A model generated the notes under the pieces. That model was not told where the DNA came from and searched no databases. It saw only the letters and a list, made by a program, of their open reading frames with translations. The position numbers and the translations under genes are program-made. A DNA stretch of 63,657 nucleotides, from assembly GCA_024399015.1 (NCBI GenBank), contig JAKSIC010000016.1:1-63657 (forward strand), read 5' to 3'. The number at the start of each line of letters is the position of its first letter. Within the stretch, counting starts at the first letter, position 1. Source of the stretch: Fibrobacter sp. GTDB lineage: Bacteria > Fibrobacterota > Fibrobacteria > Fibrobacterales > Fibrobacteraceae. Of the stretch, positions 11,187 to 63,657 are shown piece after piece.

Positions 11187-12518
11187 ATGAATGGAACAAT
11201 TTTTGGAAATAGTTTGGTTAAGTTTGGCTTTGTAGCCTTTGCTCTGGCTTTGGGCCTTGTGGCCTGTGGCGACGGAGGCTCTACAAACGGACCGTCAACT
11301 AATCAAAATGACACAAGTATTTCTTCTGTAGAGTCTGAAGATGATTTGCCCAACTGTACGGAAAATAGGGAAGGCTTCGCCCGCTTTATAAACGGGACGA
11401 AGGAAGGCTTTGTTTGCAAGGACCGTAAGTGGGTTCATTACGATATGATTGCGGACATTGATGACAACTTGCCCGGCTGTACTGGCTCAAGAGAAGGCCT
11501 GTCAGCTTACCTTTATGAAGAAAATCGTGAACTGAAATGCGTAGATGGGGTCTGGGAAAAGATTGGCGAGGAGGCTAGATCCTCCTCTAGCGTTGCCCCG
11601 AGCTCCAGCAGCGTCATTCTGAGCTCATCGAGCGAAGAATCTAGCAGCTCTGTCGCTAGTTCCAGTTCGGAAGAATCTTCAAGTTCCGTAACATCCTCTT
11701 CTTCTGTCGCAAGTAGTTCTTCCTCCAGTGTCCCGGGCTCCTCTTCAAGTGTCATCCCGGGCACTGACCCGGGATCTAGCAGCTCTGTCGCAAGTAGTTC
11801 TTCCTCCAGTGTCCCGAATTCCTCTTCCAGTGTCATCCCGGGCACCGACCCGGGATCTCCCGCCTTCGGTACTCTGACCGACTCCCGTGACGGCCAGGTG
11901 TATAAGACTGTAAAGATCGGCACCCAGATCTGGATGGCAGAAAACCTGAACTACGCATACACTGGCGTGAAGTACAATTACCGCAGTTACACTTCCGATT
12001 CCACCAGCTGGTGCTACGAAAACAAGGCTTCCAACTGCGACAAGTACGGTCGCCTTTATACCTGGAGTGCCGTGATGGACAGTGCCGCACAGTTCAGTGA
12101 GAACGCAGGGACCAAGTGCGGTTTTGGAACGGAGTGTACCCCTAATAGCCCCCACCGCGGCATTTGCCCAGAAGGCTGGCATGTGCCCACGAACGAGGAG
12201 TACAGCACTCTGTACACCTACATCGGAGGTTCCAGCACCGCTGGTTCGTTGTTGAAATCCACCAGTGGCTGGAATGATTATAACGGCAAGAGCGGTAACG
12301 GGACCGACAAGTATGGTTTCTTGGTGCTCCCCGCCGGTGACAGGGACGGCAGTGGCGGTTTCTACAATGAGGGCACCTACGCCAACTTGTGGTCTGCTTT
12401 TGAGGACAATAGCGACTACGCGTGCTACCAGTCCTTCTACTACTATAACGACTACGCGCTCATGTTCAGCACCGACAAGTACGGCGGTCAAAGTTTGCGT
12501 TGCCTCAGGGACTCGTAA
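11187..12518 (+). CDS. FISUMP-domain lipoprotein (one domain)
   Basis: The 443-aa product begins with a lipoprotein signal ending LVAC (C27), so it is probably membrane anchored. Two short similar repeats follow (LPNCTENREGFARF / LPGCTGSREGLSAY), each ending near a W. A long Ser-rich linker (about 130-225) contains two 27-residue tandem units ending in SVIPGTDPGS. The C-terminal FISUMP domain (about 228-443) has FGTLTDSRDGQVYKTVKIG, WMAENLNY, YGRLYTWSAVMD, CPEGWHVPT and a final LRCLRDS. FISUMP proteins are abundant in Fibrobacter; their job is not established, with surface adhesion or carbohydrate binding often suspected. The GAGGAAG motif ends about 9 nt before ATG 11187. The linker DNA contains a palindromic repeat described separately. 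Confidence 0.92.
   Translation: MNGTIFGNSLVKFGFVAFALALGLVACGDGGSTNGPSTNQNDTSISSVESEDDLPNCTENREGFARFINGTKEGFVCKDRKWVHYDMIADIDDNLPGCTGSREGLSAYLYEENRELKCVDGVWEKIGEEARSSSSVAPSSSSVILSSSSEESSSSVASSSSEESSSSVTSSSSVASSSSSSVPGSSSSVIPGTDPGSSSSVASSSSSSVPNSSSSVIPGTDPGSPAFGTLTDSRDGQVYKTVKIGTQIWMAENLNYAYTGVKYNYRSYTSDSTSWCYENKASNCDKYGRLYTWSAVMDSAAQFSENAGTKCGFGTECTPNSPHRGICPEGWHVPTNEEYSTLYTYIGGSSTAGSLLKSTSGWNDYNGKSGNGTDKYGFLVLPAGDRDGSGGFYNEGTYANLWSAFEDNSDYACYQSFYYYNDYALMFSTDKYGGQSLRCLRDS
11670..11857 (+). repeat. 81-bp in-frame tandem repeat in Ser-rich linker
   Basis: Two copies of an 81-bp unit, one ending at 11776 and the next at 11857, encode 27-residue linker blocks. Each contains the palindrome ATCCCGGG-N6-CCCGGGAT (11751-11776 and 11832-11857 with flanks). 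A run of more than 40 bases around 11680-11722 recurs identically at 13464-13507 in the next gene. Confidence 0.85.
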
Positions 12519-12608
12519 GACGAATTTTGCACGAAAGATTGTCTTTTTTTTTGAAAAAAAATAGATTATTAAATGTGTTTTGGGGAGACGTTTATTTAGG
12601 AGGTTCTT

Positions 12609-14081
12609 ATGAACATTTACAAGTGTTTTGGCGCTTGTTCTGTAAAGATCAGCATGTTCGCCCTTGCTTTGGGCCTTGCCGCTTGTGGTGGAGAAAACTC
12701 TACAAGTGCTCCGTCAAACAATCTGAGCGAAGACGAAAAAAATGTTACTGACAAAGCTAGCTGGGAGTATTTGAACCCAGAGATTGCTTATGGTACTTTG
12801 ACGGATGATCGCGACGGCCAAGTCTATAGGACCGTCACCATCGGTACCCAAACCTGGATGGCCGAGAACTTGAATTACGCTTACACTGGAGTGCCTTACG
12901 AATACGACGGTGATTCTTCCAACTCCACCAGTTGGTGCCGTGATAATGACCCAGCCAACTGTGCCAAGTACGGTCGCCTGTATACCTGGAGTGCTGCAAT
13001 GGATAGTGCAGGAATTGTAGATTCAAATGGCGTAGGTAAAGGCTGTGGCGTTGGTAATGGTTGTATTGGCATGGCGCGTGGTGTTTGCCCCAGTGGCTGG
13101 CATTTGCCAAGTTATGACGAGTTTGAAACTCTGATTAAATATGTAGATCCTGATGCTGAATCTTATGGCCATATAGGTAATAAACATGTTCGTTCATCAA
13201 CGGCGGCTAACAGATTGAAATCTAAGTTTGAGTGGGACTCTGTTGGCGTAGGTTTGGATACTTACGGGTTTTCTGCGATATCATCTGGAATCACATACGA
13301 TCCCGATGCTGATTTGTCTTTCTATTATGCTCCTGCACAATTCTGGTCAAATGATGGAAATTCTCGTGAGTTCGCTTATTCCCTGATTATGTATAATAAT
13401 GATGAAACGGTAGTCAATTGGCACGCGATGTCTAGTGCAATTTCGGTTCGCTGTGTCAAGGACTCAAGTTCCGTAACATCCTCTTCTTCTGTCGCAAGTA
13501 GTTCTTCTTCAAGTGTCATCCCGGGCACCGACCCGGGATCTCCCGTCTACGGTACTCTGACAGACATTCGCGACAACCAAGTTTACAAGACCGTCACCAT
13601 CGGTACCCAGACCTGGATGGCTGAGAACCTGAACTACGCTTATACAGAACCTCCGTTTGATGTTGATTACGATACCACGGGTTTGTGTTTTCTTGGTGAT
13701 TATTGTAATGGTCGCCTGTATACCTGGGCTGCCGCAATGGACAGCGCAAGCTTGGTGAATTCGAGTGGTACAGGTGAAACAGTGCGTGGCGTTTGCCCCA
13801 GTGGCTGGCATTTACCCAGTAAAAAGGAGTGGGAGACATTGTGGGACGTGTGTGAGGTTGGAGATATGACCTTCACGCGCATGCCTGTAATAGTCAATCA
13901 CTGCAGTGAATATTTAAAAACGAGCAGTATACTAGCCGGTGGAAATTATGCGCAATTTTGGAGTTCTACAGAAGAGGATGAAGACCGTGCGTTGCGTTGG
14001 TACCCCCTTCACGATGGTTATGCAATCGTATCTAAAAATGAAAAAAGTTCCTTGTTTGCCGTTCGCTGTGTCCAGGACTAA
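12609..14081 (+). CDS. FISUMP-domain lipoprotein (two domains)
   Basis: The 490-aa product has a lipoprotein signal ending LAAC and a short spacer. FISUMP domain 1 spans about 58-276 (YGTLTDDRDGQVYRTVTIG ... VRCVKDSS). A Ser linker carrying SVIPGTDPGS follows, then FISUMP domain 2 (about 310-490, ending VRCVQD). A good ribosome-binding site (AGGAGG, about 12598) supports the start. It is 90 nt behind the single-domain paralogue, and the shared linker DNA implies recombination between them. Domain 2 is shorter than domain 1. Function unknown; a surface lipoprotein is the best guess. Confidence 0.92.
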   Translation: MNIYKCFGACSVKISMFALALGLAACGGENSTSAPSNNLSEDEKNVTDKASWEYLNPEIAYGTLTDDRDGQVYRTVTIGTQTWMAENLNYAYTGVPYEYDGDSSNSTSWCRDNDPANCAKYGRLYTWSAAMDSAGIVDSNGVGKGCGVGNGCIGMARGVCPSGWHLPSYDEFETLIKYVDPDAESYGHIGNKHVRSSTAANRLKSKFEWDSVGVGLDTYGFSAISSGITYDPDADLSFYYAPAQFWSNDGNSREFAYSLIMYNNDETVVNWHAMSSAISVRCVKDSSSVTSSSSVASSSSSSVIPGTDPGSPVYGTLTDIRDNQVYKTVTIGTQTWMAENLNYAYTEPPFDVDYDTTGLCFLGDYCNGRLYTWAAAMDSASLVNSSGTGETVRGVCPSGWHLPSKKEWETLWDVCEVGDMTFTRMPVIVNHCSEYLKTSSILAGGNYAQFWSSTEEDEDRALRWYPLHDGYAIVSKNEKSSLFAVRCVQD

Positions 14082-56997: not shown

Positions 56998-57024
56998 GCC
57001 ATCCCGGCCTTGAGCCGGGATCTC
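56998..57024. repeat. ATCCCGGC hairpin element
   Basis: GCC-ATCCCGGC-cttga-GCCGGGATCTCC immediately after the GH5 stop. Variant of the GTCAT...GGATC family. Confidence 0.7.
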
Positions 57025-57083: not shown

Positions 57084-57108
57084 GTCATTCCGGGAGTGTC
57101 CCGGGATC
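57084..57108. repeat. GTCATTCCGGG...CCCGGGATC element (intergenic copy)
   Basis: GTCAT-TCCCGGGA-like stem: GTCATTCCGGGAG then TGTCCCGGGATC. It matches, base for base in the arms, the palindrome encoding VIPGTDPGS in the FISUMP genes. Confidence 0.8.
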
Positions 57109-63290: not shown

Positions 63291-63323
63291 GTCATCCTGG
63301 AGCCTCGTTGAGGCAATAGGATC
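63291..63323. repeat. GTCATCCTGG...GGATC element
   Basis: GTCATCCTGGA then hairpin GCCTC-gtt-GAGGC (63302-63314), ending AATAGGATC. Third variant of the family. Confidence 0.7.
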
Positions 63324-63446: not shown

Positions 63447-63609
63447 GAGGTCCTTAACGGAACGGCACAAAGATAACAACATTTTGATTTTTTGTAAATG
63501 TGAAGGGGAGAATCTTTCTGAAAAAATCTTTGGTAAAAGTCCGCAAAATGAAACTGTGGGAAAGCATAGTCGTGAAATTTTTGCAGAAAACAAAGTTTGC
63601 AAAAAAAAG

Positions 63610-63637
63610 AAAAACTCAGCATTTCTGCTGAGTTTTT
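63610..63637 (-). terminator. Terminator of second, truncated tRNA
   Basis: Identical hairpin to the one at 63331-63358, positioned 279 bp away. Confidence 0.85.
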
Positions 63638-63641
63638 CTTC

Positions 63642-63657
63642 TGCGGTCGGACAGACT
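63642..63657 (-). tRNA. Partial tRNA, probably tRNA-Leu (cut by window end)
   Basis: The last 16 nt of the window repeat the 3' acceptor/T-arm sequence of the tRNA at 63363 exactly, 279 bp further on, behind an identical terminator. The anticodon lies outside. Confidence 0.7.

Follow-up and report, generated by a model that had tools for sequence, protein, structure and literature searches.

We analysed a 63,657-nucleotide stretch of Fibrobacter sp. DNA (the window), which is contig C8 of a 3.34-Mb, 43-contig assembly, and compared it with relatives from the genus Fibrobacter. Two FISUMP lipoprotein genes in this window carry short DNA palindromes within their reading frames, and further palindromes of related sequence lie between genes. 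The features are as follows.

11187..12518, + strand: FISUMP lipoprotein gene 1, 443 aa (Pfam Fib_succ_major, E 2e-34)
about 11580-11860, within gene 1: Ser-rich linker containing three palindromes
11613..11641, + strand: coding palindrome GTCATTCTGAGCTCATCGAGCGAAGAATC in gene 1, translation VILSSSSEES
11697..11858, + strand: tandem pair of 81-bp units, alike at 70/81 positions; one VIPGTDPGS palindrome lies in each unit
11751..11776, + strand: coding palindrome GTCATCCCGGGCACTGACCCGGGATC in gene 1, translation VIPGTDPGS
11832..11857, + strand: coding palindrome GTCATCCCGGGCACCGACCCGGGATC in gene 1, translation VIPGTDPGS, in the second 81-bp unit
12609..14081, + strand: FISUMP lipoprotein gene 2, 490 aa (Pfam Fib_succ_major, E 1e-47), in which a Ser linker joins a FISUMP domain to a second domain of this kind (partial FISUMP match; Lcl_C match)
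13515..13540, + strand: coding palindrome GTCATCCCGGGCACCGACCCGGGATC in gene 2, translation VIPGTDPGS, right flank common to the 11832 copy
56998..57022, + strand: intergenic palindrome GCCATCCCGGCCTTGAGCCGGGATC with a mutated tag (GCCAT), directly past the GH5 gene
57084..57108, + strand: intergenic palindrome GTCATTCCGGGAGTGTCCCGGGATC, with GH5 on one side and tgt on the other
63291..63323, + strand: intergenic palindrome GTCATCCTGGAGCCTCGTTGAGGCAATAGGATC, with an imperfect inner stem

The original prediction listed three VIPGTDPGS-encoding palindromes, and all three are present, each in frame 0 of one of the two FISUMP lipoprotein ORFs; a fourth coding palindrome, at 11613-11641, had been overlooked, and its subtype also occurs in the Horse_feces15 MAG (L161). 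The related palindromes that it placed near 56998 and at 63291-63323 likewise exist, and the unmutated form of the 56998 copy has four occurrences in the genome by pattern search. The palindrome at 57084-57108 does lie between GH5 and tgt, but it is a relative of the coding copies and not the same sequence, as it has the loop AGTGT and a change in one arm. In the window as a whole, the pattern GTCATYCC...GGGATC gives four matches against 0.02 expected.

Each of the 11751, 11832 and 13515 copies consists of a perfect 8-bp stem (ATCCCGGG/CCCGGGAT) located 3′ of an unpaired GTC, and the window copies share a 5′ tag, T/CGTCAT. The stem is formed by columns 4-11 paired with columns 18-25, with its first two pairs (AU, UA) almost invariant, and encloses a loop of 5 nt in the 25-nt forms and 6 nt in the 26-nt forms. 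Other subclasses have an outer stem of 5-6 bp and an inner stem, so that single units span 24-45 nt overall. Many intergenic copies continue on the 3′ side with ATC-TCC (26 with TCTCC), and inverted neighbouring palindromes are present at L088 and at C5:69782/69823. In a set of 15 coding copies, pairing holds for 99% of stem cells, a percentage inflated because most elements were retrieved with patterns that already demanded partly complementary arms, leaving columns 11/18 free and columns 9/20 free only in the sets retrieved with the first pattern. Covariation between the arms of these 15 palindromes is 0.53, against 0.16 after shuffling (0 of 500 shuffles reach the observed value) and at most 0.14 when the stem is slid, and covariation in the intergenic set resembles that in the coding set.

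Our genome counts derive from pattern searches, which returned 85 matches to class 1 (GTCATYCY...RGRATC) and 42 to class 2 (GTCATYGCG...GYRATC), compared with 3 and 2, respectively, for the reversed control patterns. Class 2 (GTCATYGCGAG...GYRATC) also occurs within coding loops, where it reads CHCEERSDEAI or VIASPQGEAI. After a stem and energy cut, 74 class-1 matches survive, with 44 intergenic rows (about 40 copies after removal of nested matches) and 27 inside called genes, a split that depends on a simple codon-usage gene caller. The repeat is thus not rare between genes. Since about 89% of the window is coding, class-1 copies are depleted from genes, yet not excluded from them. We found 23 class-1 copies inside 16 Pfam-supported genes, a tally not nested with the 27, as some of these copies fall below the energy cut. 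The 16 hosts are eight FISUMP lipoproteins, a GH16 lipoprotein, TrpC-TrpF, topoisomerase III, MnmE, a glycosyltransferase, NfeD, a DEAD/DEAH helicase and a TonB receptor. The 26-nt form is present in all 19 genus genomes searched and in none of 12 outside the genus (control 0). Two individual cases are of note. A FISUMP lipoprotein has a palindrome in its signal peptide region (MKNSFPSVILSVAKNLAMLSIAAVMFVAC; L070 8396-8420, G000 C13:23195), at which its paralogue L058 reads MDIFKNLAMLSIAAVMFVAC and has no palindrome, and a helicase (L017 1-1818, minus strand) contains, between helicase motifs, the tandem peptide ARGTRPEVRDFGKE beside the palindrome-encoded DPGLRRDD.

One intergenic copy is identical to a coding copy. 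A twin of GTCATCCCGGGCACCGACCCGGGATC, matching at 26/26 letters and with the same tag, lies at C1:343346-343371, in the gap that separates an mlaD gene from one for an ABC-transporter ATPase, and its flanks are unrelated to those of the coding copy (8-9 of 30 positions alike). In the nine relatives in which it can be read, the gap between these two genes is about 9-12 bases and contains no palindrome. The identical 26-mer is also found in a non-coding cluster of G003.

Within the FISUMP linkers, the palindrome persists while the peptide varies. The linkers of relatives of gene 1 read VIPGTDPGS, VIPDSDRGS, VIPDPDRGS, SSSSVPIEDP, SSSSVLIEDL, EIPGQAGND and VILSSSSEES, and, together with the roughly 40 intergenic copies, this bears out the proposal that a dispersed repeat was inserted in frame into coding DNA and has persisted there. 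The further suggestion that this happened twice within gene 1 does not hold as two independent insertions, as an 81-bp tandem duplication (70/81) contains both the 11751 and the 11832 copy. That duplication, with left flanks alike at 17-28 of 30 positions among coding copies and a right flank of the 13515 copy alike to that of the 11832 copy at 24 of 30, points to recombination of Ser-rich linkers, and we consider the chances about even that the linker copies spread mainly in this manner from few primary insertions. However, several subtypes and frames are present in the linkers, with up to four palindromes in one gene (L148), and palindromes are likewise found in enzyme loops, where there is no Ser linker. 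Linker recombination therefore adds to the main explanation set out below and does not replace it.

The presence of palindromes in core enzymes across the genus also shows that the phenomenon is not limited to FISUMP lipoproteins, as first described. MnmE, TrpC-TrpF and TopB sequences from as many as 20 genus-mates are readily aligned outside a few loops, and these loops contain palindromes that vary from species to species, or none, in differing frames and on both strands, with peptides such as VILSEAKNL, CHPERNEVESKDL, VIARERSDRGNP, DPLLRCAQSRMT, CHPEQAQRVEGS, VIASPQGEAI and DPGSEAGMT. In MnmE, a structure model of modest quality (mean pLDDT 65) would place the insert between two G-domain strands, in a low-confidence stretch. 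The PRA isomerase domain encoded by trpC-trpF (L088 2960-3220, G000 C34) has about 85 extra codons that include several palindromes and a 24-bp tandem unit (GKPGMTAE/TTE), and most of this insert is missing in orthologues. In the TopB orthologues L255, L256 and L260, the same loops hold a CGAGAGA-type tandem repeat (TRDERRETRE) instead.

A 26-nt palindrome in reverse orientation recurs at one position of TopB, where about nine species have it at identical codons, with both arms altered. Gene conversion could account for this shared site, as could re-insertion or hairpin selection. In G022, the TopB palindrome is the same 26-mer as 22 other copies in that genome, which fits concerted evolution with the commonest palindrome, a pattern that G001 does not show. 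Compensation that preserves the arms even in coding copies, such as this one, is what would be expected if the hairpins were retained for a job in DNA or RNA (as a terminator, in mRNA stability or as a protein binding site), with the coding copies being needed sites. We regard this as unlikely, in that the palindrome at this TopB position has decayed in L248 and L259 and is absent from L251 and L263, and insertion sites vary between species. Tolerance rather than function would account for the coding copies.

We also searched for a REP-associated transposase of the Y1_Tnp family (RAYT or IS200-like), the obvious candidate if the palindromes were mobilized as GTAG REPs are. In E. coli and other control genomes the search recovers known cases, and it identified Y1_Tnp proteins in 4 of 12 genus-mates (first set), but it returned no Y1_Tnp match in the nearly complete genome studied here, or in G006, despite 64 copies of the 26-nt form in the latter, while G009 has two Y1_Tnp genes and 9 copies. 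A palindrome lies within 1.5 kb at only one of six Y1_Tnp loci in the genus. Mobilization by a RAYT is therefore unsupported, since the presence of Y1_Tnp does not track copy number, and we judge it very improbable; these results favor another copying process, under which survival in genes would be set by frame, lack of stops and position.

That VIPGTDPGS is simply a selected linker peptide, its DNA palindromic through chance or codon bias, is a reading that we reject even though the peptide recurs with the same codons in several FISUMP proteins, since two species have the identical 26-mer between genes, copies are read in other frames and on the opposite strand, the arms covary and the hairpin stays while peptides change, and the probability of a full Watson-Crick stem given peptide and codon usage is 0.0005-0.003 in five of the seven coding forms tried (the other two hold G-U pairs and score 0 in this strict test).

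The explanation that we favor, and consider very probably correct, is that the VIPGTDPGS linkers come from translation of a dispersed, REP-like DNA palindrome that spread by hairpin-directed copying and was filtered in genes. The palindrome, with its unpaired T/CGTC tag, an 8-bp stem starting A-T/T-A and a commonest loop of 5-6 nt, would be scattered through Fibrobacter genomes by a DNA-level process directed at the hairpin and not at any one sequence. Most copies would remain between genes, and those landing in genes would survive only if the frame is kept, no stop is introduced and the site is permissive, as in Ser-rich lipoprotein linkers and core-enzyme loops. Within FISUMP genes, copies would later have multiplied with the linker through tandem duplication and exchange between paralogues. 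That the palindrome has moved into these sites, and has not been lost elsewhere, is the reading we prefer, and the direction of gain versus loss depends on which orthologues are without the repeat; the relatives are too diverged for a target-site duplication or an exact insertion boundary to be established. The linker peptides are presumably translated. Cysteine is absent from all 31 palindrome peptides of exported Ser-linker proteins and present in 14 of 42 from MnmE, TrpC-F and TopB (Fisher p 1.7e-4; 0/21 vs 11/37, p 0.005, with identical elements collapsed), which suggests that the palindrome peptides are translated and filtered; we treat this contrast as suggestive because TopB alone also has zero cysteine and the copies are non-independent. 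More tentatively, and with somewhat less than even confidence, we propose that these hairpins could keep supplying Fibrobacter with new protein sequence, with loops and linkers repeatedly filled, overwritten and erased by RAYT-free, hairpin-directed copying, even at fixed TopB positions.

The closest known elements are the CGTC-tagged REPs (Di Nocera et al. 2013, PMC3733652), a superfamily that includes Rickettsia RPE-4 and RPE-6 and Neisseria dRS3, with an 8-9 bp stem, a 4-5 nt loop, predominantly head-to-head dimers and tails of which most, not all, fit CCA (PMC3733652). These REPs have no known transposase and are mostly intergenic, with in-gene copies in several species, including in DNA-repair genes, and different REPs occupy about the same recB site in two Xanthomonas species (PMC3733652); recurrent use of a site, as in TopB, therefore already has a precedent. 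The Fibrobacter repeats are similar in their unpaired C/TGTC tag, in an 8-bp stem opening A-T/T-A, and in being mostly intergenic with some copies in genes and with no Y1_Tnp match in this genome. However, their commonest loops are 5-6 nt, against 4-5 there, with the 25-nt forms inside that range and the 26-nt forms outside it, the downstream bases are TC(C) and do not fit the CCA tail, other classes have longer imperfect stems, and many copies are in exported lipoprotein linkers. We therefore call them CGTC-like rather than members of the superfamily, in view of their different tail and a loop that tends to be slightly longer. Rickettsia palindromic elements are described as inserted in frame and translated in many unrelated genes, with RPE-4 and RPE-6 in the CGTC superfamily (PMC10969869, PMC3733652). 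Measured against these descriptions, the Fibrobacter palindromes are likewise in frame in unrelated genes and missing from orthologues (MnmE, TrpC-F, TopB), but they are units of 24-45 nt, not about 150 bp as in the first kind of RPE, and they occur in a different phylum, in gut rather than intracellular bacteria. With GTAG REPs and REPINs, which are associated with RAYTs, they have in common short dispersed hairpins and a short conserved tag, but this tag is GTCAT and not GTAG, and there is no RAYT match in this genome.

Fibrobacter is not named by Di Nocera et al. 2013 (PMC3733652) and is absent from the 2025 RepRanger survey, none of the papers listed by our literature searches reports palindromic or REP repeats of this type in Fibrobacter, and searches with the strings HSERSEES, VILSVAKN and GTCATTCTGAGC gave unrelated papers only. 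In-gene palindromes are a known phenomenon in Rickettsia and some other bacteria, and Fibrobacter is a real, new and widespread case, so that protein-coding palindromes, described from Rickettsia and a few scattered cases, now also include a genus of gut bacteria that degrade fibre. The 20 genomes, in which the same loops contain different inserts, provide a natural series for studying how REPs multiply without a RAYT, and for asking if hairpin insertion yields useful linkers. These findings also serve as a warning for annotation, in that peptides like VILSVAKNL, CHPERSEGS and VIPGTDPGS are translated repeats and not conserved motifs.

Finally, a terminator-like stretch of about 55 bp (...GCGGTCGGACAGACT) is directly repeated at the end of the contig (63323-63378 / 63600-63657) and possibly marks an assembly end.
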